Shown here piece by piece: positions 8,394-38,076 of a stretch of DNA of 39,759 nucleotides. Made by a program: the position numbers and the translations under genes. Under the pieces are notes generated by a model. That model was not told the DNA's origin. It saw only the letters and a program-made list of their open reading frames with translations, and made no database searches. The stretch is from an uncultured Eubacteriales bacterium (lineage in GTDB: Bacteria; Bacillota; Clostridia; Christensenellales; Aristaeellaceae). Within the stretch, counting starts at the first letter, position 1; every line of letters starts with the position of its first letter. Location of the stretch: contig CADCHI010000021.1 of NCBI GenBank assembly GCA_902801165.1, positions 1-39,759 on the forward strand. Reading direction: 5' to 3'.

Positions 8394-8398
8394 ATCCG

Positions 8399-11156: not shown

Positions 11157-11162
11157 TTACCC

Positions 11163-15065: not shown

Positions 15066-16604
15066 TTATTCGAATTCAGCGGAGCAGATCCAGGAGGTTT
15101 CGCAGGTCGCCAGCTGGGGCAGGCTCACGACGCCCAGATCCTTGCGGAACACCCAGTTGTCCACGGTGTTCACCAGCGCCTGACCATAGGCCATCTCGTT
15201 AATGTAGTCGCTGGCCAGGGTGGCGTTCTCATTGGTGTGGCCCTCGGAGGTCATCAGGGGCTGCAGCAGTTCCTTGAGCTTCTCATCGGTCACGGCCATG
15301 CCCAGCGCGGCGTTGTCGCCGCCGGCCAGGTCATAGGACAGGAAGGTCCACACGAAGGCCACGTCGCGCATGCCCATCTGGCAGATGGCAATATCCCAGG
15401 CGTTGGGATCGGCGAAGGCGGACTGGAACATGGCGTTGTCGTAGGAATCGATCCTGCAGTTGATGCCGATGGCCAGCAGGTAGCCCTGCACGATGGCGGC
15501 CAGGCGGTTGTGGTTGTCCTCGTTGGGCACCAGCAGGCGCAGTTCCTCGCCCTTGTAGCCAGACTGCTTCAGGAACTCGGTGGCCTTGGCGGAATCATAC
15601 TTGAAGTAATCCTCGCTGGCGGAGGCGGGGGTCAGGTCGCTCATGCCGTCCAGAGCGCCCATGAAGGTGGGCACCTTGGCGTTGCCGTCCATCGCGCCCA
15701 GCACCAGCATTTCCTTGTCGATGGCGTAGGAGATGGCCATGCGCAGGTTGATGTCCGCGCCGCACTGACCTTCGCGGGAAAAGTACTGCACATAGGTGAT
15801 GTCGGTGGGCTTGGTGATCACGGTATAGTTGCCTGCGTCGCGGCCGCCCTCCAGGAAGTTGGACACCTCGCTGTTGGCGATCTTCTCAAAGCCGTCGATG
15901 GCGCCGGTTTCCAGGGCGATGGTCTGCTGGGAAGCCTCGGCGATCTTGGTGTAGGCGATCTTATCGACGGTCATGTTCTTGTACATCGGGTTCTGGACAG
16001 ATTCATCGGTCTGCCAGTAGTTGGGGTTCTTTTCAAAGGTGACGGACACGTTGGGCACGAAGTCGGTCACCATGTAGGGCGCGGTGCTGACGCAGGAGGT
16101 CGCCATGCCGTCGCTCGCCGCTTCATAGGAGGCCTGGGAGACGATCATGCCGCGCTCCATGACGGTGGAGAAGCTGGAGGGAGCCGCATCTTGCAGCACC
16201 AGGTCGAAGGTGTATTCACCGGTCTCAACCGCGTCCACGATCCAAGTGACGGCGGCCTCGTCGCGGCCCTTCAGCAGGGAGAACACGCAGTCGGAAGCCT
16301 TGATCTGGTTGCCGGCGGTGTCGAAGATATTGTCGTAGATTTCAAAATGATAGGTGATGTAGTCCTCGGTGGTCCAGTTCTTCGCCAGCACGCCGTAGTA
16401 CTCCTGGGTGGCGGGGTCCTTCAGGCACAGCGTCTCATAGAAGTACTGGCCGACGGGGCCGCGGTTGGTGAAGCTGGTAAAGGGAGAGATGTTCTGCGGG
16501 GCCATGTTGGCACCGATGGTCAGGCTCTTGCCCTCGGCCAGGCCAAAGGACAGACAGGTGAGCAGCAGGCTCACGATGAGCAGCATGGACAGGAACTTCT
16601 TCAT
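15066..16604 (-). CDS. Extracellular solute-binding protein, family 5 (Opp/Dpp type)
   Basis: The start is the ATG at 16604, nine bases after AAAAGGAG. The 512-residue product begins with a signal peptide (MKKFLSMLLIVSLLLTC...) and a likely cleavage after FGLA; there is no clear lipobox, which is odd for a Gram-positive binding protein and leaves membrane anchoring uncertain. The mature part has the family-5 features: SLTIGANMAPQNISPFTSF, LAKNWTTEDYITYHFEI, a DCVFSLLKGRD helix, and INLRMAISYAIDKEML. It captures the substrate and hands it to the OppB/C-like permease. It is the first gene of the importer operon and divergent from a membrane AraC regulator, whose sensor domain may respond to the same ligand. 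Confidence 0.9.
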   Translation of the reverse strand: MKKFLSMLLIVSLLLTCLSFGLAEGKSLTIGANMAPQNISPFTSFTNRGPVGQYFYETLCLKDPATQEYYGVLAKNWTTEDYITYHFEIYDNIFDTAGNQIKASDCVFSLLKGRDEAAVTWIVDAVETGEYTFDLVLQDAAPSSFSTVMERGMIVSQASYEAASDGMATSCVSTAPYMVTDFVPNVSVTFEKNPNYWQTDESVQNPMYKNMTVDKIAYTKIAEASQQTIALETGAIDGFEKIANSEVSNFLEGGRDAGNYTVITKPTDITYVQYFSREGQCGADINLRMAISYAIDKEMLVLGAMDGNAKVPTFMGALDGMSDLTPASASEDYFKYDSAKATEFLKQSGYKGEELRLLVPNEDNHNRLAAIVQGYLLAIGINCRIDSYDNAMFQSAFADPNAWDIAICQMGMRDVAFVWTFLSYDLAGGDNAALGMAVTDEKLKELLQPLMTSEGHTNENATLASDYINEMAYGQALVNTVDNWVFRKDLGVVSLPQLATCETSWICSAEFE

Positions 16605-16655
16605 GGTTTGCAACTCCTTTTCGATGTTTGGCGCTGTTCTCGCGCCGTTGATGAA

Positions 16656-16684
16656 AAGATAGCATGGATGCGTCACCATTTCAA
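16656..16684 (-). promoter_or_regulatory. Sigma-A promoter of importer operon
   Basis: On the minus strand: -35 TTGAAA (16679-16684), 17-base spacer, -10 TATCTT (16656-16661). It lies 52 bases before the binding-protein ATG. Confidence 0.65.
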
Positions 16685-16757
16685 CACGCACCTTTTCTTA
16701 ATTTGTGTCATCTGATACCAAATCTTACGATCTGTCACTTTTGTTTGAAATTTACGG

Positions 16758-16785: not shown

Positions 16786-16913
16786 AATAGTCAATCAGAA
16801 CGGTGACAACTTTACTTATTATTCGTCACTTTTCTGAGGATTGGTTTTTTTGGCATGTTCACCGCTTCGCAGAAACGCACAGCGAGGCTTTCCCGCGCAC
16901 AGGAGTGATGCAA

Positions 16914-19319
16914 ATGAGAAAGGCGTTCCATATCAGAACCATTCTGCCGGTATTTGTTGTGTTGATCTGCTTTGCCCTGTGTTTGAACCTCGCGTTCTTT
17001 GCCGTCGTCACCCGGTTCGGCGAATCCAACGCCGACGATTTCTCCGCCGCGTTGAACTACATCTTCCAGCCCGTGTCGGAAATGCTGGACGCCCATTACA
17101 TGTCGGAGGTGGACGCGCCGATGGAGGCGCTGGTCGGCTCGTCGCCCTACATCAGCTATTCCTTCGCCACGAAGCAGTATCCGGCCAACAACGAGCTCAT
17201 CGCGCGCCTGGAAGATGACCTCGACAGGCTGTGCGAGGCCTCATCCGCCATCACCGCCGCGCTGATCTACTCCCCCACCGTCGACAGCTACATCGCCTCC
17301 ACCTCCCTGACCTCGGCGGGCTCCCCCATCCCGGACGGCCTGACCGGCATTCGCAACCTGTTGTATGATTACAACACCGGATCGCTGAAAAAGAGTTCTG
17401 TCAGCGCGACGGAGCACCTCACCTTCATTTTTCAAACCCAGGGGGCCCTGGTGGTCACCAAGGATCTTGCCACCCTGTCGGGGCAGGTCTACTCTACGCT
17501 GTTCCTGTTCCTGGACATCGACGACTTCGCTTCCTATTTATATAATGACATGACGCTTAACGCCCACTATCACAGCAACATCGAGTTCGGCATCTTCGAT
17601 GAGGGCGGAAACCCGCTGTACACCAGCGCCTCCCTGGACGACGCCGCGGCAGGCGAGGTCCTCTTCCGCACCGCGGACAGCGCCGAGGTGCTGCGCCTGG
17701 ACGATTCCTACGGCGTCTCCTTCCGCTCCACCATCCTGAACTGGCAGTATGTGTTCGTCGTGGACCGGGCGTTCCTGTCGCCGTTCTCCAATCCCGTCAG
17801 CAACCGTGGCATGTTCCTGATCGGCGTGGGCATGTCGGTCGTGCTCGCCCTCGTCTTTATACTGCTCCTGCGCCTCCTCTACCGGCCGGTGGATGAATCC
17901 CTCTCGGCGCTGATCCGCAAGCTGGATGTGGACGTAAATGTGCCTCTGCTCAGGCGTCCGAACGCCTTCGACGCCATCAGCGACCAGGTTTCCGTGCGTC
18001 TGACGGAGGCGGAGGAAGTCAAGAGCGTGCTCTCCCGCATCTCCAACGAGGCCGTCAGCATGCTCTTCTTCAGGATGCTCTCCGGCGTGCGCGTCGAGCC
18101 GCACAGCCTGGAGGCCGCCATGAAGTACACCGACTACGGCTTCGGCATCGACGATGTGTATGTCGCCGGCGTGGCTGCCTACCGAAACGGCGCGGGCATG
18201 CGGCTGGAAACCCGCCAGGAGGTCAACGACTTCCTGACCCGGAACCTGGACAAGTTCGGGGTCCGCTATCCCTGCAACCACATCGCGCTGACGCTGGACA
18301 TGCCGTTCTTCGCTCTGGTCATCTCCTTCCCGGCAGGCACCTCCATCGCCAAGTGCAAGCACATGCTCAATGAGCTGACCAAGCAGCTCGTCGGCGCGAC
18401 AAAGACCGCCAACCTGCCCCTGGAGCTGCGCTTCGGGCACCTCTACCACTCCATCTACGACCTGTCCTTCTCCTTCTACGAGGGCATGAAGCAGCTGGAG
18501 GACACGCGGCCACAGGCGGAGCCCGGCGTCCCCGCTTCGGAGCCGACGGACGCGCCAGCCGCCGCGCCTGCGGCGGAGCTGCCGCCTCCCGCGGAGCAGG
18601 TCCCGGCGGAAGCGGACGCGGGCATGGACTACATCGGCCTGATCGACCGACGGGCCGCGCAGATCGTGGGCTTCGTGCTGGAGGGCAAGCGGGACGCCGT
18701 TCCCCAGGTGCTGGACAGGACGCTCCGCGCCATACTGAACGACGCTGAGCCCGACCGGTGCGCGGAGCACGCCAAGCGCCTGGTCAGCGCGGTCACCGAG
18801 GCCATGATCAACAACCGCTTCGTGGTCCACGAGCATCTGACGGACGTCTCCGGCCAGCTGACCGAGGCCATCCGCGAAGGACTCACCGACGAACAGCTGG
18901 TGGAGCAGACCCGCCAGGGCGTGTACACGCTGTGCGAGGACCTGGGTCGCGTGCTGGAAAAGCAGCGCAACCCCTACATCAACGCCGCGCTGGAGTACAT
19001 CGACGCCCACTACAGCGACCCCGCCCTGTCCCTTGAGGAGATCGCCGAGAGCCTGGGCATCGCGCCGAACTACCTGAGCTCCCTGTTCAGCAAGAGCCTC
19101 GGCAAGAAGCTGTTCGAGTACGTCAACGAGGTGCGGCTGGAGAAGGCCATCGAAATGCTCCTGACGACCCGGGAAACCGTCAACGACATCGGCGAAAAGA
19201 GCGGCTTCGGCTCGCCCCGCAACTTCATGCGCCAGTTCAAGAAGTACACTGACATGACCCCCACCGCCTACCGCAAGCAGCATCAAAGCGGCGGAGAAGC
19301 CAAGGAAACGGAGGAATAA
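16914..19319 (+). CDS. Membrane-anchored AraC-family regulator with extracellular sensor domain
   Basis: The start is the ATG at 16914, eight bases after AGGAG. The 801-residue protein has a transmembrane helix at about residues 8-29, an extracytoplasmic dCache-like sensor of about 270 residues, a second helix (MFLIGVGMSVVLALVFILLL), then a cytoplasmic region of about 200 residues, a Pro/Ala-rich linker (near 18514-18625), another helical region and a C-terminal double helix-turn-helix of the AraC type (SLEEIAESLGIAPNYLSSLF and TVNDIGEKSGFGSPRNFMRQFKKY). Such one-component sensors bind an external ligand and switch on a neighbouring ABC importer. Divergent placement next to the importer operon supports that role here. 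Confidence 0.85.
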   Translation: MRKAFHIRTILPVFVVLICFALCLNLAFFAVVTRFGESNADDFSAALNYIFQPVSEMLDAHYMSEVDAPMEALVGSSPYISYSFATKQYPANNELIARLEDDLDRLCEASSAITAALIYSPTVDSYIASTSLTSAGSPIPDGLTGIRNLLYDYNTGSLKKSSVSATEHLTFIFQTQGALVVTKDLATLSGQVYSTLFLFLDIDDFASYLYNDMTLNAHYHSNIEFGIFDEGGNPLYTSASLDDAAAGEVLFRTADSAEVLRLDDSYGVSFRSTILNWQYVFVVDRAFLSPFSNPVSNRGMFLIGVGMSVVLALVFILLLRLLYRPVDESLSALIRKLDVDVNVPLLRRPNAFDAISDQVSVRLTEAEEVKSVLSRISNEAVSMLFFRMLSGVRVEPHSLEAAMKYTDYGFGIDDVYVAGVAAYRNGAGMRLETRQEVNDFLTRNLDKFGVRYPCNHIALTLDMPFFALVISFPAGTSIAKCKHMLNELTKQLVGATKTANLPLELRFGHLYHSIYDLSFSFYEGMKQLEDTRPQAEPGVPASEPTDAPAAAPAAELPPPAEQVPAEADAGMDYIGLIDRRAAQIVGFVLEGKRDAVPQVLDRTLRAILNDAEPDRCAEHAKRLVSAVTEAMINNRFVVHEHLTDVSGQLTEAIREGLTDEQLVEQTRQGVYTLCEDLGRVLEKQRNPYINAALEYIDAHYSDPALSLEEIAESLGIAPNYLSSLFSKSLGKKLFEYVNEVRLEKAIEMLLTTRETVNDIGEKSGFGSPRNFMRQFKKYTDMTPTAYRKQHQSGGEAKETEE

Positions 19320-19859: not shown

Positions 19860-19890
19860 GCCCTGGAATTTGCAAAGCAAATTCCAGGGC
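19860..19890. terminator. Palindromic hairpin between convergent genes
   Basis: Perfect 14-bp stem (19860-19873 with 19877-19890) and a 3-base AAA loop, 24 bases past the stop of the plus-strand gene. No T-tract follows on either strand, so termination is likely but not certain. The remaining space to 20039 holds the heptamer array and a weak GCTGCCGC...GCGGAAGCGGCA hairpin, no gene. Confidence 0.5.
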
Positions 19891-19891
19891 A

Positions 19892-19926
19892 AGTCAATAG
19901 TCAACAGGCAACAGCCAACAGTCAAA
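19892..19926. repeat. Tandem heptamer array (5 x 7 bp)
   Basis: Five units in register: AGTCAAT, AGTCAAC, AGGCAAC, AGCCAAC, AGTCAAA. An inverted partial copy (TGCCTGTTGACTC) follows near 19988. Same unit consensus as the array at 11129-11156 read on its minus strand. Confidence 0.6.
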
Positions 19927-20039
19927 ATGTGGCTGCCGCGCTTTATCGCAGGATTGGTTGAAAACGCGGAAGCGGCATTCTGACTGATGCCTGTTGACTC
20001 AGACAAATACCAATTTGCCCTGCATCTGACCTATCGCCG

Positions 20040-21383
20040 TCAATCCTCAAATCCGCCCTCTTCGATCACCTTCGCATACCACTTCGCGCTGTTCTTGGGG
20101 ACGCGCTCCAGGGTTTCGTAGTTGGTGTAGTAGACGCCATAGCGGGCCTCATAGCCGGCGGACCACTCGAAGTTGTCCATCAGCGACCACAGGTAGTAGC
20201 CCCGCACATCGACGCCCTCGTCCATGGCCTGGCGAAGGGGTTTCAAAACGCCCTTGATGTAGTCGATGCGCTCCTGGTCGTTCAGCAGCGATTCCACATC
20301 CGGCGTGTCCGTCTGGGGCATGCCGTTTTCGCTGATGAAGATCGGCACATTGATCTTGTACACGTCCTTCAGCATGTGCAGCACGTCCACCAGCACCTCG
20401 GTGTGCACCTCCGGGCGGTTCTGGTAGTTGCCGCCCTCGGCCACGGCCTGCTTGCGGCGGCGCTCCTCGTCCACATTGTCGTAGAGGCCGTTGTAGAAGT
20501 TCAGGCCGTAGAAGTCCACCTGCTGGCACATGGTCTCGTAGTCGCCCGGCTCCATGCGCAGGACGATGCCGTTGTCCCGCATGTGCTTCATCAGCTTTTC
20601 GGAGTAGCCGCCCAGGAACAGCGGGTGCAGGAACATGCCGTAGCCCGCGATCTCATTGTTGAACTCGGCGCTGGCGACATCCTCGGCGTTGTCCGGGCGA
20701 GCGGGATAGTGCTTCCACACGTCCACCACGATGCCGATCTTCGCATTGGGAAGATTCTTTTTCCTGAACAGCTTCACCGCCTCGCCATGGCACACCATCA
20801 GGTTGTGCACGCACTGCCGCGCCCAGGCCTCGTCGTTCAGGCCCGGGGCGAAGAAGCCCGCGGCGTTGCCCACGTAGGTGGCGATGGGCTCGTTGAAGGT
20901 GACCCAGTAATCCACATCCCAGCCGAAGTTGTCCAGCAGCACCTCCGCGTAGCGGGTGAACCACTTCACCATGTCACGGTTGCCAAAGCCGCCCTTGGCC
21001 TGCAGCGCCCAGGGCAGGTCCCAGTGGAACATGGTGGCGTTGGGAACGATGCCGTTCTCTTTGAGAAGCGCGATCAGCTTCTTATAATAGGCGATGCCCT
21101 CCGGGTTCACCGCGCCGGTGCCGTCCGGGATGATGCGAGGCCAGGCGAAGGAGAAGCGATAGGACTTCACGCCCAGCTCCTTCAGCATCTCCACATCCCG
21201 CTCCACCAGGTGGTAGGAATCGCAGGCCACGTCCGGCACGCCGCCCTTGTTGATCTTGCCGGGAATGCGGCTGAACACGTCCCAGTTGGACAGGCCACGC
21301 CCGCCATCTGTCATGCCGCCCTCGATCTGCTGGGCCGCGGTGGCCACGCCCCAGATGAAATCCTTCGGAAATGCGTACTTCAT
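20040..21383 (-). CDS. Beta-glucosidase/6-phospho-beta-glucosidase-fold enzyme, GH1
   Basis: A 447-residue full-length GH1 enzyme. It has the N-terminal FIWGVATAAQQIEG signature, HWDLPWALQ, VTFNEP with acid/base Glu165, and FISENGMP with nucleophile Glu352, plus the C-terminal WSLMDNFEWSAGYEARYGV substrate-binding strand. The WSAGYEARYG form is that of beta-glucosidases, not of phospho-glucosidases. No signal peptide, so it cleaves imported beta-glucosides. It is the last gene of a three-gene operon behind a VOC protein and a Gfo/Idh/MocA oxidoreductase, 3 bases after the former. Confidence 0.93.
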   Translation of the reverse strand: MKYAFPKDFIWGVATAAQQIEGGMTDGGRGLSNWDVFSRIPGKINKGGVPDVACDSYHLVERDVEMLKELGVKSYRFSFAWPRIIPDGTGAVNPEGIAYYKKLIALLKENGIVPNATMFHWDLPWALQAKGGFGNRDMVKWFTRYAEVLLDNFGWDVDYWVTFNEPIATYVGNAAGFFAPGLNDEAWARQCVHNLMVCHGEAVKLFRKKNLPNAKIGIVVDVWKHYPARPDNAEDVASAEFNNEIAGYGMFLHPLFLGGYSEKLMKHMRDNGIVLRMEPGDYETMCQQVDFYGLNFYNGLYDNVDEERRRKQAVAEGGNYQNRPEVHTEVLVDVLHMLKDVYKINVPIFISENGMPQTDTPDVESLLNDQERIDYIKGVLKPLRQAMDEGVDVRGYYLWSLMDNFEWSAGYEARYGVYYTNYETLERVPKNSAKWYAKVIEEGGFED

Positions 21384-21386
21384 ATT

Positions 21387-21902
21387 TTATCTGTCCTTTC
21401 TGCCGTAGATCTGGTAAGATTCGGGGCCGTACTGGTGCACCTCAATTCGGATGCCCTCGGGATCGTGGAACCACATGGTCCAGTTCCCATCCAGGGACGG
21501 GCCGGGTTTGATGTCGATGTACTCCCCCGCCCCCCGCTCGATCAGCTGCCGGTGGAAGGCCTGGATGTCGTCCACCACGAAGGAGAAGTGGGTGTAGCCG
21601 TAGTGCTCGGGCCTGTAGGGGTTGTCCACATGGGCGTCCACCTCGTTGAACAGCTCGATGAACCGGTCCTTGTCCCCGGGCCACTCCAGATAGACGATCC
21701 AGCGCACATCTTTAAGCTTCTTAAGCCTTTCGACCTCCTCCGGCTTCATCTGCGCCCAGCGCTCCGGGTGCTCCTCCGGGATGAGGTCGCCGTAGTACAG
21801 CGAAAACTTCTCCCTGCAGTCCAGCACGTCCTCATAAAACTTCTGCGTCCGGTCCAGGTCCTTGCAGTTGAACCCGATGTGGGCATTCGCGGTGACGATC
21901 AT
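21387..21902 (-). CDS. VOC-superfamily (glyoxalase/dioxygenase-fold) protein
   Basis: A 171-residue protein with two beta-alpha-beta-beta-beta modules. AHIGFNCKDLDRTQKFYEDVL starts the first, and GYTHFSFVVDDIQAFHRQL plus MWFHDPEGIRIEVHQYG form the second. His8, His about 135 and Glu about 157 are candidate metal ligands. The family includes glyoxalase I, epimerases and ring-cleaving dioxygenases; substrate unknown. It lies between the oxidoreductase and GH1 genes (13 and 3 bases away), so it probably handles a sugar-derived or aglycone intermediate such as a keto-sugar. Confidence 0.75.
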   Translation of the reverse strand: MIVTANAHIGFNCKDLDRTQKFYEDVLDCREKFSLYYGDLIPEEHPERWAQMKPEEVERLKKLKDVRWIVYLEWPGDKDRFIELFNEVDAHVDNPYRPEHYGYTHFSFVVDDIQAFHRQLIERGAGEYIDIKPGPSLDGNWTMWFHDPEGIRIEVHQYGPESYQIYGRKDR

Positions 21903-21915: not shown

Positions 21916-23058
21916 TCAGGTCAGGCTGCTTTCTTCATTTTCCTTTGGAATCGACAGGGGCATTGAGCGCGCGCAGGTCGTCCCTACATCCACATACACG
22001 CCGTTCTGTTCGTGGCTCTTCACCATGCACTCCTGCACGTCCAGCACATGGCAGGCCCGCTCCTTGGAGGCGCGCATCTCCCGCCCGTCCCGGATGGCAT
22101 AGGCCATATCGGCCACGCCCACGCCGCGGGAATCCACGTTGTAGCCGAAGGGGATGTCGATCTTCACGCGCTCGGGCCTGTCCGCCTTTGAAAAGTCGTA
22201 GGTATTTTCATACAGACTCACCGAGCCGTTGAACCAGTCCGGGCAGCCCAGGTAGAGGATGCCACGGCTTCCATAGATGGCGAAGTAGGTCTGGTCGAAG
22301 AACACGCTGTCGGAGTTGATGGACATGGTGCCGGTGACGCCGCCCTCCAGCTCCAGCACCGAGTAGAACTGGCTCTCGTTGGGGGTGTCGATGACCTGGC
22401 CGAAGCGGGGCGAAAGTTCAAACTTGTTGACGTGGGTGGGATAGGGCGCCTTGATGTTGCAGCTGACCCGCTTCACCGGCCCCAGCAGGTTGATGAGCAT
22501 GGTGAGATAGTATACGGAGTAGTCCAGGATCACGCCGCCGCCGGGCTTGTTCATGTAATCCATCGCGCCAAGCATGCGGTCGTTGTCCCGATTGCCCACC
22601 ATGGCGAAGGAGGTGATGGTGCCAAGTCTCCCGCTGTCGATGATCTGCCGCGCGGTCTGCGCCCAACCGGAGAGGAAGGTGTCCGGCGCGGTGCCCAGGT
22701 ACAGACCCTTTGCGTCCGCCAAGGCGCTCATACGCCGGGCGGTGGCAAGGTCCAAGGCAAAGCATTTCTCGGTGTAGGCGTGCTTGCCCGCATTGAGGAT
22801 TCGGGTGATGAGCTCCTCGTGGGCGGCGGGCGGCGTCAGGTTCACGACGATGTCGATGCTCTCGTCGGCCAGCAGGTCGTCGATGGTGCAGGCCCGTGCG
22901 CCGTACTTCTCCGCGGCCTTCCGCGCCTTTTCGATGTGGCGGTCCGCGATGGCCTCCACCCTGATGATGTCAAAACGCTTTGCCATCGTATCGATATAGG
23001 TGCCGCTGATCATGCCCGTGCCGATCACGCCCACGCGATAAAAAGCCCTGTCCGCCAT
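21916..23058 (-). CDS. Gfo/Idh/MocA-family oxidoreductase
   Basis: The start is placed at the ATG at 23058 (MADRAFYRVGVIGTG); the open frame upstream covers the promoter. The 380-residue product has a Rossmann fold (VGVIGTGMISGTY) and the family C-terminal domain (KPGGGVILDYSVYYLTMLINLLG). The usual EKP loop is EKC here (Glu97-Lys98-Cys99); the lysine is kept. Family members oxidise or reduce sugar hydroxyls with NAD(P); some oxidise C3 of glycosides to set up non-hydrolytic cleavage. First gene of the operon with the VOC and GH1 genes, and divergent from an AraC regulator. Its ribosome site (GGGGGTTGAAGTGC) is spaced loosely. Confidence 0.85.
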   Translation of the reverse strand: MADRAFYRVGVIGTGMISGTYIDTMAKRFDIIRVEAIADRHIEKARKAAEKYGARACTIDDLLADESIDIVVNLTPPAAHEELITRILNAGKHAYTEKCFALDLATARRMSALADAKGLYLGTAPDTFLSGWAQTARQIIDSGRLGTITSFAMVGNRDNDRMLGAMDYMNKPGGGVILDYSVYYLTMLINLLGPVKRVSCNIKAPYPTHVNKFELSPRFGQVIDTPNESQFYSVLELEGGVTGTMSINSDSVFFDQTYFAIYGSRGILYLGCPDWFNGSVSLYENTYDFSKADRPERVKIDIPFGYNVDSRGVGVADMAYAIRDGREMRASKERACHVLDVQECMVKSHEQNGVYVDVGTTCARSMPLSIPKENEESSLT

Positions 23059-23092: not shown

Positions 23093-23121
23093 ATTATAAA
23101 CGGTTCTTGACAGGCACTCAA
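23093..23121 (-). promoter_or_regulatory. Sigma-A promoter of Gfo-VOC-GH1 operon
   Basis: Minus strand: -35 TTGAGT (23116-23121), 17-base spacer, -10 TATAAT (23093-23098). It overlaps the divergent regulator promoter, so the two polymerases should exclude each other. Confidence 0.75.
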
Positions 23122-23136
23122 TCTAAACATTATAAT
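23107..23136 (+). promoter_or_regulatory. Sigma-A promoter of AraC regulator
   Basis: -35 TTGACA (23107-23112), 18-base spacer, -10 TATAAT (23131-23136), 42 bases before the ATG at 23179. The -35 lies inside the spacer of the opposing promoter, and the -10 lies inside the putative operator at 23119-23153, which predicts autorepression. Confidence 0.75.
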
Positions 23137-23153
23137 ATTCATATAACGATATT
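23119..23153 (-). promoter_or_regulatory. Putative AraC operator, copy A
   Basis: A 35-bp block upstream of and touching the -35 of the minus-strand operon promoter. By eye 28 of 35 positions match the block at 30697-30731. Its distal 13-mer (23141-23153, ATATAACGATATT) ends 19 bases from the -35 box, the same as in copy B. The likely binder is the adjacent regulator (inference). Confidence 0.6.
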
Positions 23154-23178
23154 AATGAATTGATATGAGAGGTGCAGC

Positions 23179-24006
23179 ATGGTCTATTCCATACGACATT
23201 CCTCGCGCCGCGACAGCCGAATTCCATTGAAGCTGGTCTACATCGGCCACAATCACGAGCTGGAGCTGTCCAACCACCCCAATGGAGCGGGCTTTTGCAT
23301 GTGGTACACCTGCACCGAGGGCAAGGGCGAGTTCACGGTGGACGGCAAGCGGGTCATCATTCGGCCCGGCCAGTGCGTGATCCTGCTGCCGGACACGCCC
23401 TTTTCCTGCAAGGCGCTGCCGGGAGGCTGCATCATCCACCTGCTGGGATTCACGGGGCCCTGCTGCATCGAGCTTCTGCGGGTGTTCGGCATCGAGGAAT
23501 CCGGCATCTACCAGCTATCAGACAAATCCATTCTCCCCGAGGCCATGGAGCGCCTCGTGCGGATGCACCGGCATAACGCCGCCCCGGAGGAATACTCCAA
23601 GGTGTGCTACAGCCTCCTTCTCGATCTGGCCCCCCGCATCGAGCGGCTTTCCGACATCCAGGCCGAAGCCCCGGTCAACGAGGCGATCCAAATGGTCATG
23701 GAGTACCTCGAGGCCCACTACCGGGAGCCCATCAGCCTGGACACGCTGGCCGACGAGGTCCACCTGACCAAGGAATACCTGTGCGTGCTGTTCAAAAAGG
23801 AGATGGGTCATACCATCCTTCACCGGCTGACGCTGATTCGCATCGGCTGGGCGCGGCTGTACCTGGAGCAGTACCCCGACAAGAAGGCCTACGAGATCGG
23901 CAGGATGTGCGGCTTCGACAGTCCCAGCTACTTCGGCAAGAAGTTCCGGGAGGTCGTGGGCATGACGCCAGACGCCTATCGGCGCGTCAATTCCATCGTC
24001 GTCTGA
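23179..24006 (+). CDS. AraC-family transcriptional regulator with cupin-type sensor
   Basis: A 275-residue soluble regulator. Residues about 15-95 form a cupin/AraC-binding barrel (GFCMWYTCTEGKGEFTVDGK, then VIIRPGQCVILLPDTPF), which senses a small molecule, often a sugar. The last 100 residues carry the double helix-turn-helix (SLDTLADEVHLTKEYLCVLFKKEMG and KAYEIGRMCGFDSPSYFGKKFREVVGMTPDAYRR). Start ATG at 23179 behind GAGAGG. It is divergent from the Gfo-VOC-GH1 operon and precedes a GH78 gene on the same strand. The shared 35-bp block at 23119 and 30697 suggests it activates both minus-strand operons and limits its own promoter. Confidence 0.88.
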   Translation: MVYSIRHSSRRDSRIPLKLVYIGHNHELELSNHPNGAGFCMWYTCTEGKGEFTVDGKRVIIRPGQCVILLPDTPFSCKALPGGCIIHLLGFTGPCCIELLRVFGIEESGIYQLSDKSILPEAMERLVRMHRHNAAPEEYSKVCYSLLLDLAPRIERLSDIQAEAPVNEAIQMVMEYLEAHYREPISLDTLADEVHLTKEYLCVLFKKEMGHTILHRLTLIRIGWARLYLEQYPDKKAYEIGRMCGFDSPSYFGKKFREVVGMTPDAYRRVNSIVV

Positions 24007-24138
24007 TTTCAAGTATTGCTGACATTTCCCAAGTTCATCGTAATACCTGTCACTTTCCTTGAAAACTGCGCGTGGAAATGCCGGAAAAAGTGTGATAGCA
24101 TTGATGGTGAAATGAACCATGATACGGAGGGCAAGGCC

Positions 24139-26517
24139 ATGCCTGAATTTGGAGCGCCCAGCAAGTGGATGTGGCTGAATGATTCCACCGACGATAAAGC
24201 ATATGTCGCCCTGTTCCGCAGGGCCTTCACCCTCGCGGAGGTTCGCCCCTGCACGCTTCGCGTCAGCGCGGATTCCCGTTACAAGCTGTACGTCAACGGA
24301 ACCTTTGTCGAGGCGGGCCCCTGCAAGGGCGACGACAAGGTGCGGTACTACGACACCGTCGACATCACGCCCTATCTCGTAGAAGGTGATAACGCCATTG
24401 CCGTCGCGGTGCTGCGCTGGCCCGCCCGCGGCGGCGCGGGCAATCACAGCATTTTCCGAGCCGAAAAGCCCGGGCTGTACGTCGAGGAAGTTCTTCCCGG
24501 CGACCCGGAGCCCATCGACCAGACCTGGGACACGCTCCGAAACGACGCCGCGAGCCCCGCCCGGGACGGGCGGCTGGGCCTGACCGCCTCTTGCGAGTGG
24601 CACTGCTGCCTGCTGCCGGGGTTTGAGATCATGCCCGAGAACGCCGGCTTCGCGCCGCTGCAGATCTACGAAAGCTGCGTCGGCGATGCCGCGGTCGCGG
24701 GCTGGACGCGGGCGGATTACGTCGAGGACGCCGCCTGGCGGCCTGCCCGGGTGTACAACGCCCTTGAGGTCAACCGCGCCGCTGTCCCCGGGGACCTGGC
24801 GCCCCGCCCCATCCCCTTCATGCGCCGGCAGCGCCGTCGGTTCAAGGGCGTCAAGGCCCTGCGGAAGTCCACGGTCTCCATGGAGCAATGGAACGCCCTT
24901 CTGGCGGGAGGCCAGCCCGTCGCCCTGCCGCCTCACAGCGAGGCCGTCGTCGAGATCGACGCCGGGGAGGAGATGTGCGGCTATCCCACCCTTTCCATGC
25001 TGGGCGGCGCCGGCGCGGCAGTGGAGATCCTGTACGCCGAGGCCTACGCGACGTCCGTCCGGGTCGCGCCAGACGGCCAGCGCTTCCCCACCAAGACCGA
25101 CCGCTGCGACAGCGAGCGCGGCGAATTGACCGGCAACAGCGACCACTACGCGGTCTCCGGCCACGGCACGGAAGATCAGCCCGAGGTTTACACGCCCTTC
25201 TGGTTCCGCACATTCCGCTTCATTCGCCTGACCATCCATACCGCGGACGCGCAACTGACGCTTATGGACTACAGCTACGAATCCACGGGCTATCCCCTGG
25301 AGGTCAAAAGCCGTGTGGAGGCTTCCGACCCCACCTATGCGCAGATCTGGGACATCAGCCTGCGCACCCTCTGGCGCTGCATGCACGAGACCTACATGGA
25401 CTGCCCCTTCTATGAGCAGCTGCAATACGCCATGGACTCTCGCAGCGAGATCCTGTACACCTACGCCGTCTCCATGGACGACCGTCTCGCCCGCCAGTGC
25501 ATGGACGACTTCCGCCGCGGCCAGCGGCACGACGGCCTGCTGAACTGCAGCTATCCCAACAGCGAACCCAACGTCATCCCCGGCTTTTCCATCTACTACA
25601 TCCTGATGCTCCACGACCACATGATGTACTTCGGGGACAGGGACTTCCTGCGGGGTCACCTGGGCTGCGTGGACGGCATACTGAACGCCTTCGACCGAAA
25701 GCTGACGCCCGACGGGCTGGTGGGCAATATGGGCGGCATACTGATGGAGGCCCGCTACTGGTCATTCATCGACTGGACGCCCCAATGGGACGCCACCGTG
25801 GGCGTGCCGGACGCGGTGCTGCACGGGCCCATCGCCATGGAGAGCTTCCTGTACGTCCTCGGTCTGATGGCGGCCGCCGGAATCAACCGCTGGCTGGGCC
25901 GCTCCGACACCGCCAGGGAATACGACGAACGGGCGGAGCGCGTGCGCGACGCCCTGCGCAGGCATTGCCGTGCCAAGAACGGCATGTTCACCGACGGTCC
26001 CAGTGCGCCGGGGATCAGCCAGCACTGTCAGGTGTTCGCCATACTGACCGGGACCGTCACCCCCGAGGAGGGACGCGACCTGCTGCTGCCCACGCTTGAA
26101 AACTCGACAGAGTACGCCCAGTGCTCCGTCGCCATGATGTACTACCTGTTCCGGGCGCTGGAGCAGACCGGACTGTACGACTACGCCGATGAAAAGTGGG
26201 ATATCTGGCGCAACATGGTCAGGATGAACCTGTCCACCTGCGTGGAGGATGGCGTGACCGGGCGCAGCGACTGCCACGCCTGGGGTTCGCTTGCGCTGTA
26301 CGAGTGGCCGTCGGTGACGCTGGGCGTTCACCCCGCCGCGCCGGGCTATGATGCCATCCGCATCTGCCCCGTTCCCGGCAGGCTGGAGAGCGCCTCGGGC
26401 GAGGTGATCACCAAACACGGCCCCGTTCGCGTTTCATGGAAGAAGCGCGGGAACGGCAGCATCGACCTCAAGTATGACGCTCCAGAAGGCGTCAGCGTAC
26501 AACTGCAAGACCGTTGA
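24139..26517 (+). CDS. Alpha-L-rhamnosidase-like enzyme, GH78 family
   Basis: The start is the ATG at 24139, eight bases after CGGAGG; the longer frame from 24016 lacks a ribosome site. The 792-residue product has an N-terminal beta-sandwich with SRYKLYVNGTFVEAGPCKG (the GH78 sugar-binding-like module), then an (alpha/alpha)6 barrel with METYMDCPFYEQLQYAMDSR-type motif (the DCP...E/D acid loop of GH78) and a closing SDCHAWGSLALYEW stretch. It removes terminal rhamnose from plant glycosides or polysaccharides. No signal peptide. It lies 132 bases after the AraC regulator gene on the same strand, possibly read through from that promoter, and ends at a good terminator. Confidence 0.82.
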   Translation: MPEFGAPSKWMWLNDSTDDKAYVALFRRAFTLAEVRPCTLRVSADSRYKLYVNGTFVEAGPCKGDDKVRYYDTVDITPYLVEGDNAIAVAVLRWPARGGAGNHSIFRAEKPGLYVEEVLPGDPEPIDQTWDTLRNDAASPARDGRLGLTASCEWHCCLLPGFEIMPENAGFAPLQIYESCVGDAAVAGWTRADYVEDAAWRPARVYNALEVNRAAVPGDLAPRPIPFMRRQRRRFKGVKALRKSTVSMEQWNALLAGGQPVALPPHSEAVVEIDAGEEMCGYPTLSMLGGAGAAVEILYAEAYATSVRVAPDGQRFPTKTDRCDSERGELTGNSDHYAVSGHGTEDQPEVYTPFWFRTFRFIRLTIHTADAQLTLMDYSYESTGYPLEVKSRVEASDPTYAQIWDISLRTLWRCMHETYMDCPFYEQLQYAMDSRSEILYTYAVSMDDRLARQCMDDFRRGQRHDGLLNCSYPNSEPNVIPGFSIYYILMLHDHMMYFGDRDFLRGHLGCVDGILNAFDRKLTPDGLVGNMGGILMEARYWSFIDWTPQWDATVGVPDAVLHGPIAMESFLYVLGLMAAAGINRWLGRSDTAREYDERAERVRDALRRHCRAKNGMFTDGPSAPGISQHCQVFAILTGTVTPEEGRDLLLPTLENSTEYAQCSVAMMYYLFRALEQTGLYDYADEKWDIWRNMVRMNLSTCVEDGVTGRSDCHAWGSLALYEWPSVTLGVHPAAPGYDAIRICPVPGRLESASGEVITKHGPVRVSWKKRGNGSIDLKYDAPEGVSVQLQDR

Positions 26518-26525
26518 CAGACGGA

Positions 26526-26568
26526 GAGGCTCACCCCCGCGGGTGAGCCCCTCTATGTGTTTTGTTTT
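26526..26568 (+). terminator. Rho-independent terminator of GH78 gene
   Basis: Stem GGCTCACCC (26528-26536) with GGGTGAGCC (26541-26549), extended by GAG/CTC, followed by a T-rich tail TATGTGTTTTGTTTT. It starts 9 bases past the stop and separates this gene from the convergent second GH78-like gene, whose last codons begin at 26567. Confidence 0.8.
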
Positions 26569-28261
26569 ACGCCAGATCTATTACGATGCCCTCCGGGGAG
26601 TCGTATTCCGTGCAGACGGTTCCATCATCTTTGCGGGTATGGGAGACGCGCACCACGCCCAGGGGCGTCGGAAAGGTTCCCTTCGCGTATTCCAAATCGC
26701 CCAGATGGGGCTCGATGCGCAGGCGCTTGCAGCCCGGTTCCAGCACGGTGATGCCCAGGATGTGCCGAGCGAGGAACGGCACGGGGCCGCTGGCCCAGCC
26801 GTGGCACAGGCTGTGGCGGTAGTGCTCGTAGCAAAACGCGCCGTACTGGCCATGCACGTCCACCTTGCCCTCCGGGGTGATCTCGTCGATCCGGGCGGCG
26901 TTCTCCATCCAGTCGAGGTCGAAGTCCTCCCAGAAGGTGGTCGCGCCCAGCTTGAGCATACCGCCCCAGTAGTCGCGCAGGTCGTCGAGCGCCCCTTGCC
27001 AGTCCCCGGCCTTCGCCTTGGCCGCCAGCAGGTAGTAGCCCATGAAGGTGGAATAGCCGCTCGCGCCGCCGGGGGCGATGATATCCCGATTCAGTGCCTT
27101 CGCGTCACCCAGCCCGGACAGGCTCAGCAGTGCCGCCGCCTGCTTGGAGCCGCCGCAGTCCGGGACATAGCTGTGCATCTTCTCAATGAGCGCGAGACAC
27201 TTCCGGGACAGTTCCCCTTCACCCAGCACATCCAGCAGAACCATTCCGTCCTTCAGCGCCATCATCAGCAGCGCCTGAAGCCCCGCGTGGGTGGCAGGCT
27301 TGTTCTCCAGGTTCTTCCAGTCCAGGAAGCGGAACTCGGGGAAGCGCTCCACGCCGGCTTCATCCACATGGGCCATCGCCAGCGCCAGCTGCGCCATCAG
27401 GAAATCCTTCTGCTGGCGCAGATAAGTAAGGTCGCCGGTATAGCGGTACCACTCCGCCTGGATCACGATCCACCACAGCGTATAGCTGGAATAGCCGTTG
27501 ATCCACTCATCCTTCGGCGTGCCGTCCCGCAGAAAGTCCAGCGACTTCGGCACCATGGGGTTCGCGCCAAAGGCATTCTCGATGGCCATGATCTCGGTGT
27601 GCATGTCCCCCTGCCAGGCCAGCCGGTCCCGCTTGATGCCGTCCCACAGGTAATTCTGCATGTTCAGGTGGACGGTATAGGCGGCGGTCTTCCAGATCTC
27701 TTCAAGCAATGGATCGCTGCATTCAAAGGACCCGAGATACGGGATATCCCGGTAGATGAAGGTCATGTGCAGCGCCTGGATGTCGATGGCCGCATCTCTG
27801 TCCTCCAGCTCGATCAGCGCGAAGCGGAAGCCGGATTCGTTGGTCTCGGTGGTGCTGAGCATGCCGATGTCATACACATGGTCCCGCACGGCGTGGTCGT
27901 TGGTGGCGTTCATCTGCCCCACCGGGGTGAGCGCTTCCATGGCGGACTCCCCGAACCGTATCAGCACACGTGCCCGGCGGCTGGCGCTCTCGACGCTTGA
28001 AACCGTCAGCCGCAGATTGCCGTGCAGCTCCCTGCCGAAGTCGATCAGCAGCGCAGCCTTCTCGCCCTCTGCCCCATTTTCCAGGCGGCACGCCCCGCAC
28101 TTGCCCATGAACACCTGCAGGGGACGGTCCTCCAGCAGCCATTCGGCATTGGTGACATTCCCCCATGTCCTGACGATGCGCACCGGCAGCAGGTTCAGCC
28201 GCGCCCGCTCATCCTGATCCCTCGACGCCGCGAAGGGCATCACATCCGTCAAACGCCTCAT
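26567..28261 (-). CDS. Second alpha-L-rhamnosidase-like enzyme, GH78-related
   Basis: A 564-residue protein shorter than typical GH78. It has a beta-sandwich (FGRELHGNLRLTVSS, LIRFGESAMEAL), then the barrel with YLWDGIKRDRLAWQGDMHTE, the clearest GH78-type catalytic loop (D-G-x-K-R-D-R-x-x-W-x-G-D), and the SLCHGWASGPVPFL loop. It lacks the extra N-terminal domain of the neighbour at 24139, so the two are not recent duplicates. Start ATG at 28261, seven bases after GGAGG; the ribosome site lies within the end of the GH95-like gene, so both are co-translated from the promoter at 30670. Confidence 0.8.
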   Translation of the reverse strand: MRRLTDVMPFAASRDQDERARLNLLPVRIVRTWGNVTNAEWLLEDRPLQVFMGKCGACRLENGAEGEKAALLIDFGRELHGNLRLTVSSVESASRRARVLIRFGESAMEALTPVGQMNATNDHAVRDHVYDIGMLSTTETNESGFRFALIELEDRDAAIDIQALHMTFIYRDIPYLGSFECSDPLLEEIWKTAAYTVHLNMQNYLWDGIKRDRLAWQGDMHTEIMAIENAFGANPMVPKSLDFLRDGTPKDEWINGYSSYTLWWIVIQAEWYRYTGDLTYLRQQKDFLMAQLALAMAHVDEAGVERFPEFRFLDWKNLENKPATHAGLQALLMMALKDGMVLLDVLGEGELSRKCLALIEKMHSYVPDCGGSKQAAALLSLSGLGDAKALNRDIIAPGGASGYSTFMGYYLLAAKAKAGDWQGALDDLRDYWGGMLKLGATTFWEDFDLDWMENAARIDEITPEGKVDVHGQYGAFCYEHYRHSLCHGWASGPVPFLARHILGITVLEPGCKRLRIEPHLGDLEYAKGTFPTPLGVVRVSHTRKDDGTVCTEYDSPEGIVIDLA

Positions 28262-28262
28262 G

Positions 28263-30635
28263 TCAAAACCTCCTCACGCGCTTCACGCCCCAGTAGTTGA
28301 CCTCCGTGGGATTCCCATCCAGCGGGACAAATTCATCCATAAGCCTGTCGCCGCGCCAGAATTCGAGGGTCTCGCCGGGCCGCATGTCCGCGACATAGAC
28401 GCCGTTTTCAACCCTTACCGGGCCGTGCAACTCGCCCTCGCCCAGGTCGGTGTCGATGGCGATGCGCCCGCCGACCTCGCTTGTCACACGCACAAAGGTC
28501 GTGCGGTAGTCGTCCCGCATGGCGTCCAGCAGGAACGCGCCTTCGCAGCGCAGGCCGGCAAAGCCGCACTCGGCCCAGGCCGGCGGGCAGTCCCGGAACA
28601 CGCGGGTCACGCCGTTTTCGGTGCGGATCAACAGCTCGTGGATGGCCTCGGGCACGCCCAACTGCGCCTCGATGGTCTGGCCCCAGTTGCCACCGCCATC
28701 GCCATACAGCGACACGTCGCACATGCCCTGCGGGCCCTGGTAGTGCATGCCCGTCTCGGTGACGTAGCGGTCGATATAGTCCAGCAGCAGGTTCCGGGAG
28801 CAGGCGGGCCGCCCGGCACGGCCGTAGATCAGCGAAGCCCAGGGGAAGCTCCAGCCCATCCACTCACCGTGGCCCATGGTGCCGATGACATCGAGGCAGC
28901 GCTTGATGTCCTCTGCATGATCCGCCATCGTCCACTCGCCCAGCGGGTAGATCGGGAACAGGTGGGACATGTGGCGGTGGGTGGTAATGAGGTTCACATC
29001 CCCGCGCACCGCCAGCCCGCCCAGGGTGTCCCGCGCGTAGGGCGCGAGCCGGTCCAGCGTCATCTGCCAGCGCTTTCTTTCGTCTGCGTCTTTGCCCAGC
29101 AGCTCCGAGACCTCGCACAGCGTCTTGAGCAGCCACCGGAGCAGCGCCAGGTCGATGGTGGCGTCCAGGCCGAAGCGGTGCTTCCAGTCCGGCATCTCCT
29201 TCTTGATCCAGCGGATGGTTTCATTGATGCCGTGGTATTCGGGCGAACTGGTCCAGGGCAGGTGCAGGAAACCGTCGTCGCCCTCCCGCAATTCGGACAG
29301 CATCGGTACGACCGCCAGCTTCATGACGGGATAGGCGCGCTTCTCCAGAAAATCCCTGTCCATGGTGAAGCGGTAGTGCTTCCAGTAGTGAAAGCAGACC
29401 CAGGGCAAGGCGCAGAACTCGAAGTTGTCCACCGTCGCGTAGGTGGGGCGCAGCAGCGGGTCGGTGCTGTGGGTCAGAAAAGCGCCGTCCACCTTGAAGT
29501 GGAGCTTGCAGACCTGTTTCAAAGTGTCCAGGTTGTCCTCGATCATGCGGAACATGGGCTCGCCGAAGGCCAGGCGGTTGCCGGTATAGACCGGCCAGAC
29601 CTGCATCTGCTGCTCGTTGTTCCAGTGGTAGTCGTTGTCGCAGATGGGCGCGAAGTTCGTGTCGTCCGTCCAGGGGCCGCAGAGGGTCATGTGGGGCCCC
29701 TCCGGGCGGGTGCAGCAGCCCAGCATATAGGTTTGCAGGTAGTAATAGCCCTCCAGCCGTGTATCGGGAATGGTGATCGCGGAAGCACCAAAGTAATCCG
29801 CCCACCACATTTCATGCTGCTGCCTAAGGGCGTCGATGCCGACGCGCATGCCCTCGCGCACCTCTTGAAGCGCCATCTCACTGGCCTTTTCTGCGTCTTC
29901 CTTGCTCCACTGAATGGAGATCAGCCAGTGCCCCGGCCGGCGCGCGCAGGCCACCGCGAAGCCACCGCTCTCCGGGATGTCCTGGCGGTACAGATGAATG
30001 CCGTTCTCTTCATCTTCCGCCATGTCGGGATACCCCCAGTCCCGGCAGCGCTGTGTCAGCGTGGACATGTGCCCGCCGTAGCAGGGATACACCGTGGTGT
30101 CCCTGATGTCCGCCTCGGTGTAGTCGCCGTCCCGGCAGATGAATTTCCAGTTCAGCCGCGCCACATCATCGGGGCATTCGATCACCGCCAGCTGATGGGT
30201 GGCAGCTGTCCACACGGCGTAGGGGATCTCACCGTCTTCAGTCGTCAGCGTGCCTTCGCACCGCGCCTCATGCAGTCGCAGGCGGGAGGTGTGCTTCACG
30301 ATCTTGCCGTCGATCAGCAGCTCCACGCGGCCCACGGGCACGCGCGTGGTGTGGATGTCCTTCGGCCCGTAGGCGAAGCCCTCCACCTCGTCGCCTCGAT
30401 CCTGCTCCAGAAGCGCCTTGTATTCCGTCCACGTCTTGTCTCCGGCGGGCAGCCAGGTGCGCATGTCCCAGATCTCCGCCTGATCCAGCGATACCGTCAG
30501 CGGGCGGTGCGCCTCGCCTCCCCAGACCATCGCGCCGATCCTGCCGTTGCCCAGGGGCAACCCCTGTTCCCAGTGCATCGCCGCCCGCTCCTGTATGGGA
30601 TCGTGCTTATCAATCCAGGTCATATTCTGCGCCAT
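28263..30635 (-). CDS. GH95-like glycoside hydrolase (alpha-L-fucosidase/galactosidase type)
   Basis: The start is the ATG at 30635, eight bases after GGAGG. The 790-residue product has the GH95 N-terminal motif (GLPLGNGRIGAMVWGG), a middle (alpha/alpha)6 barrel with HWNNEQQMQVWPV where GH95 enzymes carry N-x-N-x-x-M, and TTHRHMSHLFPIYPLGEW. One of the two canonical Asn positions seems to be Glu, so the linkage or sugar may differ from classical 1,2-alpha-L-fucosidase. No signal peptide, so it acts on imported glycosides. It is the first gene of a two-gene operon with the GH78-like enzyme and has the shared operator upstream. Confidence 0.72.
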   Translation of the reverse strand: MAQNMTWIDKHDPIQERAAMHWEQGLPLGNGRIGAMVWGGEAHRPLTVSLDQAEIWDMRTWLPAGDKTWTEYKALLEQDRGDEVEGFAYGPKDIHTTRVPVGRVELLIDGKIVKHTSRLRLHEARCEGTLTTEDGEIPYAVWTAATHQLAVIECPDDVARLNWKFICRDGDYTEADIRDTTVYPCYGGHMSTLTQRCRDWGYPDMAEDEENGIHLYRQDIPESGGFAVACARRPGHWLISIQWSKEDAEKASEMALQEVREGMRVGIDALRQQHEMWWADYFGASAITIPDTRLEGYYYLQTYMLGCCTRPEGPHMTLCGPWTDDTNFAPICDNDYHWNNEQQMQVWPVYTGNRLAFGEPMFRMIEDNLDTLKQVCKLHFKVDGAFLTHSTDPLLRPTYATVDNFEFCALPWVCFHYWKHYRFTMDRDFLEKRAYPVMKLAVVPMLSELREGDDGFLHLPWTSSPEYHGINETIRWIKKEMPDWKHRFGLDATIDLALLRWLLKTLCEVSELLGKDADERKRWQMTLDRLAPYARDTLGGLAVRGDVNLITTHRHMSHLFPIYPLGEWTMADHAEDIKRCLDVIGTMGHGEWMGWSFPWASLIYGRAGRPACSRNLLLDYIDRYVTETGMHYQGPQGMCDVSLYGDGGGNWGQTIEAQLGVPEAIHELLIRTENGVTRVFRDCPPAWAECGFAGLRCEGAFLLDAMRDDYRTTFVRVTSEVGGRIAIDTDLGEGELHGPVRVENGVYVADMRPGETLEFWRGDRLMDEFVPLDGNPTEVNYWGVKRVRRF

Positions 30636-30669
30636 GATGGAAACCTCCCAGATGATTGATTCTACAACT

Positions 30670-30699
30670 ATTATAGGAGGTATCCTTGTAGAAGGACAA
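30670..30699 (-). promoter_or_regulatory. Sigma-A promoter of GH95-GH78 operon
   Basis: Minus strand: -35 TTGTCC (30694-30699), 18-base spacer, -10 TATAAT (30670-30675), about 35 bases before the ATG. The weak -35 fits an activator-dependent promoter. Confidence 0.7.
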
Positions 30700-30731
30700 T
30701 CCAAATATCTTAATATGTATATCACGATATT
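30697..30731 (-). promoter_or_regulatory. Putative AraC operator, copy B
   Basis: A 35-bp block matching copy A (23119-23153) at 28 of 35 positions by eye. The distal 13-mer ATATCACGATATT (30719-30731) differs from copy A at one base and lies 19 bases from the -35 box, exactly as in copy A. Position just upstream of -35 is typical for AraC activators. Confidence 0.6.
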
Positions 30732-30751
30732 GTGTTCTTCTGCACAAATAG

Positions 30752-31198
30752 GGCTATCCTATCCATTCACTACCAACCCGGCAGGGAAAAATCATTCTTG
30801 TCAGAAAGCAGGATTACACGCATACCCGCGAAGAGGAGATCGCCCATCTTCGTCAGGCAGGCGTATCCTATGTTTTCGCTGGCAAGGACAGCATGGATCT
30901 GCCGCTGGCAATGCGGAGGCTGAAAGAACAATTCGGGATCGAAAATATGCGGCTGTCTGGCGGCGGGATCGTGGACTGGGCTTTCCTGCAGGCCGGGCTG
31001 ATCGACGAGATCAGTCTGGTGGTTCCGCCGGTCATCGATGGCTGTACCGGGCTCGCATCCGCCTTTGACGATTCGCCCTTTGCCGTGAGGCATTCACCGG
31101 TGCCGATGCGTCTCGTGGACGTAAATCGTCTGGACAGAAATGGCCTCCGGCTCCGATACAGTATAGAGGAATCCAATACTGATATTGGAGATATGTAA
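30752..31198 (+). pseudogene. 5'-truncated dihydrofolate-reductase-family (RibD C-terminal-like) gene
   Basis: The frame is open from a TAG at 30749 to the TAA at 31196. From about 30788 it reads KIILVRKQDYTHTREEEIAH, then LRQAGVSYVFAGKDSMDL, LKEQFGIENMRLSGGGI and GLIDEISLVVPPVIDGC, the C-terminal two thirds of the DHFR-like family. There is no plausible start before Met at 30893, and about 80-100 N-terminal residues including the cofactor-binding strand are missing. The break abuts the promoter region of the GH95 operon. It is most likely non-functional. Confidence 0.65.
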
Positions 31199-37156: not shown

Positions 37157-37165
37157 ATTATACCA
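37157..37165 (-). promoter_or_regulatory. Extended -10 promoter of rrf2 operon
   Basis: Minus strand TGG-TATAAT, an extended -10 (TATAAT at 37157-37162), 37 bases before the ATG. The only -35 candidate (TTGCGC) needs a 19-base spacer, so the extended -10 probably matters most. The same 11-mer CATTATACCAT recurs near 37240. Confidence 0.5.
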
Positions 37166-37170
37166 TGATT

Positions 37171-37234
37171 GTCGGCGTGCTGCGCAACTCGCTTCGCTCC
37201 CTTGCCCGCCGACCCGGAAAAACTCTGTTTTTCC
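37171..37234. terminator. Double hairpin between repeat-protein gene and rrf2
   Basis: GTCGGCG (37171-37177) with CGCCGAC (37207-37213) flanks a CTCGCTTCGCTC loop, and GGAAAAAC (37216-37223) with GTTTTTCC (37227-37234) forms a short stem. The latter lies 14 bases past the stop of the minus-strand gene ending at 37249 and is its likely terminator, though a U-tract is only present within the stem. Confidence 0.45.
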
Positions 37235-37248
37235 TAATCATTATACCA

Positions 37249-38049: not shown

Positions 38050-38076
38050 GGTGGTTCCTCCTCATTGAGATTCATT

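Follow-up and report, generated by a model that had tools for sequence, protein, structure and literature searches.

AraC-family activators of class II are marked by operators that lie upstream of the promoter, consist of directly repeated half-sites and contact the -35 box. Among described sugar regulators of this family, the available excerpts of one comparative study assign direct-repeat motifs with a 21-bp periodicity to the L-rhamnose regulators of Bacillales, Bacteroides and Enterococcus, with a unique motif for each group, and describe the operator of E. coli RhaR as two inverted 17-bp half-sites separated by 17 bp (PMC3870299). A second study, as far as its accessible text goes, predicts from comparative genomics that PecR, PecR2, HemR, XylQ and AxuRS are local AraC regulators of glycan-use genes in Caldicellulosiruptor, with tandem motifs sought at 21 or 32 bp (PMC8579813). 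Here, we analyze a 39,759-nucleotide stretch from an uncultured Eubacteriales bacterium (contig CADCHI010000021.1, positions 1 to 39,759; hereafter the window), in which an AraC-type regulator gene at 23179 stands among three predicted transcription units for glycoside hydrolases (GH): Gfo-VOC-GH1, araC-GH78 and GH95-GH78'. A sequence-only reading of this DNA had proposed that one AraC-type operator is shared by the glycosidase operons and read by the 23179 regulator, and the motif found at homologous loci, its repeat structure and its promoter spacing together support that proposal. We judge it likely that two 35-bp blocks are class-II operators of this regulator within an acquired-looking cluster, activating the Gfo-VOC-GH1 and GH95-GH78' operons and probably repressing araC-GH78; all three units would be involved, since block A also touches the araC-GH78 promoter.

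Predicted operator A (23119..23153, minus strand) lies between Gfo-VOC-GH1 and araC-GH78, and predicted operator B (30697..30731, minus strand) lies upstream of GH95-GH78'. Block A reads AATATCGTTATATGAATATTATAATGTTTAGATTG from 23153 to 23119 and block B AATATCGTGATATACATATTAAGATATTTGGATTG from 30731 to 30697, and a direct comparison bears out the 28 of 35 matching positions that had been counted by eye. The half-sites of A form a direct repeat, the distal one at 23141-23154 and the proximal one at about 23121-23134, ending on the -35 box of the Gfo operon; B has the same layout before GH95-GH78' (distal 30719-30732, proximal about 30699-30712). Re-read from the sequence, both promoters proposed for the two operons are exact: TTGAGT-N17-TATAAT for Gfo-VOC-GH1 (23093..23121, minus, read 23121 to 23093) and TTGTCC-N18-TATAAT for GH95-GH78' (30670..30699, minus, read 30699 to 30670). 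The TTG of each -35 box forms the last bases of its block, the distal 13-mers (23141-23153 and 30719-30731) each lie 19 bases from the -35 box as the earlier reading had it, and identity between A and B drops on both flanks outside the block edges. Likewise as proposed, block A covers the -10 box (23131-23136) of the divergent araC-GH78 promoter, a perfect consensus on the plus strand (TTGACA-N18-TATAAT, 23107..23136).

None of 2000 dinucleotide-shuffled pairs of both intergenic regions reached 28/35 (mean 20.0, standard deviation 1.1, largest 26), and shuffling the AT-rich DNA in which the blocks lie 2000 times gave a best match of 25. A 35-letter pattern with 27 fixed positions, searched with up to three mismatches, occurs at two places only in the organism's own draft genome (3.55 Mb in 98 contigs, 88.6% complete), and these are blocks A and B. 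At no more than three mismatches, the same pattern is absent from the 119 other relatives searched, which include 27 members of the organism's own genus. These genomes also lack a close relative of the regulator, with two matches at E<=1e-20 (29-30% identity); searches of 395 other genomes of the order (E<=1e-24) and 390 of the class (E<=1e-22), which overlap in their genomes and were limited to six scored candidates in each, returned one match at 30% and nine at 24-30% identity. For GH95, 70 other relatives gave no close homolog and one match at E<=1e-60 with 27% identity, and scans of genome contigs with the AraC and GH95 queries confirmed no relative. Because no close counterpart of AraC or GH95 was found in the relatives searched, absence of the motif there cannot serve as a refutation; AraC homologs were therefore collected from farther away, and their motifs stand in for those of orthologous promoters.

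Two further observations come from scans of the organism's own genome. The 13-mer has a third exact copy (G000:C46:4281; L003:1490-1525), inside the palindrome GAATATCGTGATATTC, which by eye lies between genes for a LysR-like regulator and a hydrolase; we set it aside as an operator, and its match is probably a coincidence. Separately, a 20-kb stretch of the same contig carries a half-site match of 13.1 bits (L004:15765), near the score of block B.

We assembled 42 homolog loci (identifiers beginning with L), 12 from the searches of relatives, order and class and 30 from a family search (L054) and a profile search; the latter covered 398 genomes of the phylum, one of them the genome that holds the window, and apart from the window's AraC it gave 30 matches, for 29 of which a locus was available. 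Removal of near-duplicates left 36. The protein profile included the window's AraC, whereas the window DNA was excluded from motif training. A first sign came from same-orientation 35-bp blocks before the homologs in L040-L043, and in eight of the 42 loci (L040, L041, L042, L043, L046, L054, L057 and L069) the block beats all shuffles or all but one. Six of these eight (not L046 or L069) end in GATTG, as do A and B, and by eye the TTG of this pentamer opens a -35 box with a -10 box 17-18 bp away, the latter poor in L042 and L054. De novo motif discovery in the DNA upstream of the 36 homologs returned tAATATTnTTATAT, also written ATATAAnAATATTA with complement TAATATTnTTATAT, at a log-likelihood of 117.7 versus 48-57 in six shuffled sets. 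When both strands of the whole window were scanned with this motif, the best match was at 23141 (16.9 bits) and the second at 30719 (15.0 bits), the distal half-sites of A and B; the third, at 10.2 bits, lies inside a coding region. The same top two emerged when training used the 18 loci that lie outside the class (trimmed; L057 and L069 included), by a narrow margin (11.9 and 11.5 bits versus 10.8), and in both runs on 30 loci without six block-bearing ones, one of which also had a narrow margin, with the blocks at 10.8 and 10.3 bits versus 10.0 for the next site. Upstream of homologs, 46 of 21384 positions carry matches of at least 9 bits; the corresponding figures are 240 of 1069200 in shuffled versions of this DNA and 17 of 244006 in what remains of the homolog loci, which is mostly coding. 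At 24 loci of Gfo homologs (39-51% identical, among them the own genome's second Gfo copy) the block was not found in the upstream sequences, some of which are short, and half-site scores reached at most 10.2 bits versus 15.2 and 13.5 for the two blocks.

The homolog loci also show how the half-sites are arranged. A direct repeat stands at -20 in the block group (z 5.2 over four homologs, rising to 6.4 once A and B are included) and at -21 in 15 other homolog loci (z 6.3), while over 30 of the 36 loci the peak stands at -21 (z 5.4); direct half-sites about 21 bp apart, as in a class-II operator, thus appear as peaks at -20 and -21, both with z above 6. Of 25 loci, 15 have a TATAAT-like sequence (at least 5/6) at 54-56 bp from the distal core, compared with a mean of 2.1 and a maximum of 8 in 500 shuffles, and the corresponding distances to the target -10 boxes in the window are 55 and 56 bp. 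These 25 are the loci, out of 30 with a divergent neighbor, that passed the score cut; several are mutually related, and for L043, one of the 15, a site inside the block was chosen over the top-scoring one. The proximal half-site at the -35 box, held at a fixed distance from the -10 box, is again as in a class-II operator. The 35-bp block is best read as a pair of direct half-sites 20 bp apart, not as an undivided element.

We propose a mechanism in which a sugar released from the substrate would bind the N-terminal domain of the regulator. Since the cluster encodes GH78, GH95 and GH1, the source of this sugar is most likely a rhamnose-, fucose- or glucose-bearing plant glycoside; a rhamnoside as the inducer is a guess. 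An AraC dimer on operator A would then recruit RNA polymerase to Gfo-VOC-GH1 and at the same time cover the -10 box of its own strong promoter, damping araC-GH78, and the same dimer at operator B would switch on GH95-GH78'. Because the araC -10 box lies inside operator A, a regulator bound at A would be expected to impede araC-GH78 and to serve Gfo-VOC-GH1, yet the sign of this autoregulation is the least certain step of the model. At L040, L041, L042 and L054 an araC-directed TTGAC(A/T) is found just past the distal half-site, by a few bases, and not under the operator, which would allow a different effect at those loci.

Operator A covers the araC -10 box and both operators touch a target -35 box, which would also suit a regulator that represses all three units until relieved by sugar. 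We think this improbable, since the sites lie upstream of the -35 box, barely reach it and keep a fixed distance from the -10 box, which is the activator layout known from AraC and XylS. About equally improbable in our view is an operator that is an inverted repeat under a symmetric dimer, in the manner of E. coli RhaS and RhaR. Block B does resemble a palindrome (12 of 2000 shuffles are equally good), and an inverted signal appears in the block group, but the dyad of block A is not significant, being matched by 738 of 2000 shuffles, and a pure inverted-repeat reading was rejected for it. The half-site core is nearly self-complementary, which creates apparent dyads, and the strongest signal in both groups of loci is the direct repeat at 20-21 bp. 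An operator of the RhaR type would moreover need 51 bp, against a 35-bp block whose half-sites are directly repeated 20 bp apart.

Slightly less probable still is that the blocks serve another regulator, for example the 838-aa AraC protein encoded at 16803 or an unlinked protein, and that the adjacent AraC is incidental. The assignment of the binder rests on sequence comparison, half-sites of different AraC-family members can look alike, and the 838-aa protein too has an HTH_18 domain. Yet the motif, learned from DNA in front of the 23179 homologs, was then located in the promoter of the 23179 gene itself, while the promoter region of the 838-aa AraC gene holds none of the window's top motif matches. 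That the likeness of the blocks merely reflects a recent promoter duplication or AT-rich chance is very improbable: both intergenic regions are AT-rich and pairs matching at 28/35 or better occur elsewhere in the window, but no shuffled pair reaches the block match, identity stops at the block edges, and the same motif and spacing recur at homolog loci in other families.

Several observations weigh against our preferred reading of A and B as class-II operators of the 23179 regulator. The 42 homologs are merely 21-31% identical to the window's AraC, and because of this the binding specificity is assigned by family. A clear full block is missing from 34 of the 42 loci, and one of the eight blocks, that of L069, sits in the other orientation. 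Motif discovery also depended on the training set. With all 36 loci trimmed, a coding site at 17540 overtook block B, which fell to third place. The 18 loci other than the distant ones (two from the phylum, 16 from the same class or closer) gave a motif resembling a ribosome-binding site when trimmed and another unrelated motif when the 250-bp upstream regions were left untrimmed; the operator was likewise missed by the 18 distant loci with untrimmed 250-bp upstream regions and by training on 36 loci at a width of 35. The other motifs from the 35-bp run and the untrimmed distant run probably stem from conserved coding sequence. In the block group the inverted arrangement scores as well (z 4.6-4.8), and -10-like matches are enriched at 61 and 66 bp too. 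Finally, a 28/35 match is not rare across the window, where 18 distinct pairs match at 27/35 or better, ten of them, besides the A/B pair, at 28 or better, in a count that omits near-diagonal and close inverted pairs. Among the other high-scoring pairs are GC-rich matches, repeats near 37.3-37.9 kb and a pair within the two transporter ATPase genes. What singles out the A/B pair is its equal position relative to the promoters, the ending of the match at the block edges, and the evidence from the homologs.

The company kept by the homologs is informative about the subfamily. Pfam tests covered the divergent gene at 24 of the 36 loci; at six more, the N-termini resemble those of tested genes, and the last six are without a tested divergent neighbor. 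The divergent gene is a glycosidase (GH2, GH42, GH36, GH26 or GH4) in 15 of the 24 and not in the other nine; a small AraC beside sugar-cleaving genes, as in the window, is therefore common in the subfamily. A half-site of at least 9 bits lies upstream in 13 of the 15 glycosidase loci, the exceptions being L073 and L077. These loci suggest a wider hypothesis, which we regard as evenly balanced between true and false: that a subfamily of small AraC proteins spread across the phylum, presumably Bacillota, and frequently encoded opposite a glycosidase gene on the divergent side, has retained a single operator code despite identities of only 21-31% to the window's AraC, and that GH95-GH78' joined the regulon here through its own operator copy in the acquired cluster. 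In the proposed code, direct TAATATTnTTATAT half-sites are spaced by 20-21 bp, and 54-56 bp separate the distal core from the -10 box of the target.

The regulator itself (23179..24006, plus strand, 275 aa) has the C-terminal helix-turn-helix (HTH) of the AraC family (HTH_18, 6.1e-16; HTH_AraC, 3e-13) and an N-terminal AraC_binding domain (2.5e-06; 27.7 bits, above the cut-off of 21.1), as in the sugar-responsive branch of the family; Cupin_2 stays under its cut-off. The protein also falls under the curated NCBIfam cut-offs for AraC (63.4 of 208 bits), RhaS (43.8 of 288), MelR (55.4 of 253) and RhaR (40.9 of 363). Directly downstream, a GH78-type alpha-L-rhamnosidase gene (24016..26517, plus; start codon provisional) completes araC-GH78 (23179-26517). 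Divergent from this unit, Gfo-VOC-GH1 (23058-20040, minus) encodes a Gfo/Idh/MocA oxidoreductase (21916..23058) and a VOC/glyoxalase-fold protein (21387..21902), both assigned by domain matches, and a GH1 beta-glucosidase-type enzyme (20040..21383) that scores 460 bits with NCBIfam BGL, slightly below the cut-off of 478.5. Convergent on araC-GH78, the GH95-GH78' operon (30635-26567, minus) encodes an enzyme with a GH95 catalytic domain (28263..30635, domain match) and a second, shorter GH78-like enzyme, GH78' (26567..28261), with a partial PF17389 match. In the 838-aa protein (16803-19319), only the C-terminal AraC HTH (HTH_18) was recognized; its gene is divergent from one at 15066-16691 that encodes a solute-binding protein of family 5, with oligopeptide-type transporter genes nearby. 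An apiosidase-like enzyme (DUF5060/Apiosidase/DUF5605) at 6882-8519 fits the use of plant glycosides or pectin.

The cluster was apparently acquired by its host, because GH95 and AraC have few and distant matches in the relatives. Beside operator B lies the remnant of a RibD_C gene (30800..31198, plus) that has lost its N-terminal half and covers profile positions 105-191 of 197; it is likely the right edge of the inserted cluster, marking an insertion or rearrangement. A genome of the same genus, G026, has an apparently intact 251-aa RibD_C relative (L099:15244-15999), followed by an aldo/keto reductase 91% identical to that of the window and a flavodoxin-like gene, and over the 19.9-kb stretch of G026 that was compared, the rest of the window is matched only in short, scattered pieces. 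Two other genomes, G022 and G015, have the aldo/keto reductase, and the RibD_C gene is not in the stretches taken from them. Elsewhere in the window, a repeat at a 357-bp offset (37280-37930; 35/35 and 34/35 over several stretches) looks like a tandemly duplicated segment; it lies in the open reading frame region 37165-38079, whose frame has no Pfam match. Short repeats of the CTGCCTGTTGCC type lie on both strands at 11125-11162 and 19887-20001, outside the main open reading frames.

In the literature searched, where coverage was partial and motif figures fell outside it, this operator is not described. Activation of a sugar-degradation cluster by a local AraC protein is a well-known mechanism, and the main value of the finding is a transferable operator motif. 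It ties a regulator for which the searched genomes hold no close relatives to its probable operators and target enzymes, through evidence independent of the window's DNA. Motif and promoter spacing together could predict the targets of similar glycosidase-adjacent AraC regulators elsewhere in the phylum, and a shared operator code, if true, would allow regulon prediction across the phylum.

The layout of A and B is that which we take to hold for E. coli AraC at I1-I2 and Pseudomonas XylS at Pm, with direct-repeat half-sites, the proximal one over the -35 box, and class-II activation. This likeness is one of layout. The AraC-family L-rhamnose regulators, according to the excerpts available, share the direct repeat with the window but differ in controlling rhamnose catabolism (PMC3870299). 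Those of Caldicellulosiruptor, as the accessible text describes them, exert the same local control of glycan loci in another genus and over other targets (PMC8579813). The nearest experimentally used analogue that can be named would be bgaR-PbgaL, a likeness by description and not by sequence. BgaR is, we assume, an AraC-family protein whose gene is divergent from a beta-galactosidase gene. In the portions of the reports available, BgaR-PbgaL of Clostridium perfringens likewise pairs a regulator with a promoter switched on by a sugar, lactose (PMC10312008, PMC8111989), whereas the window has GH1, GH78 and GH95 enzymes and would place two operons under one operator.

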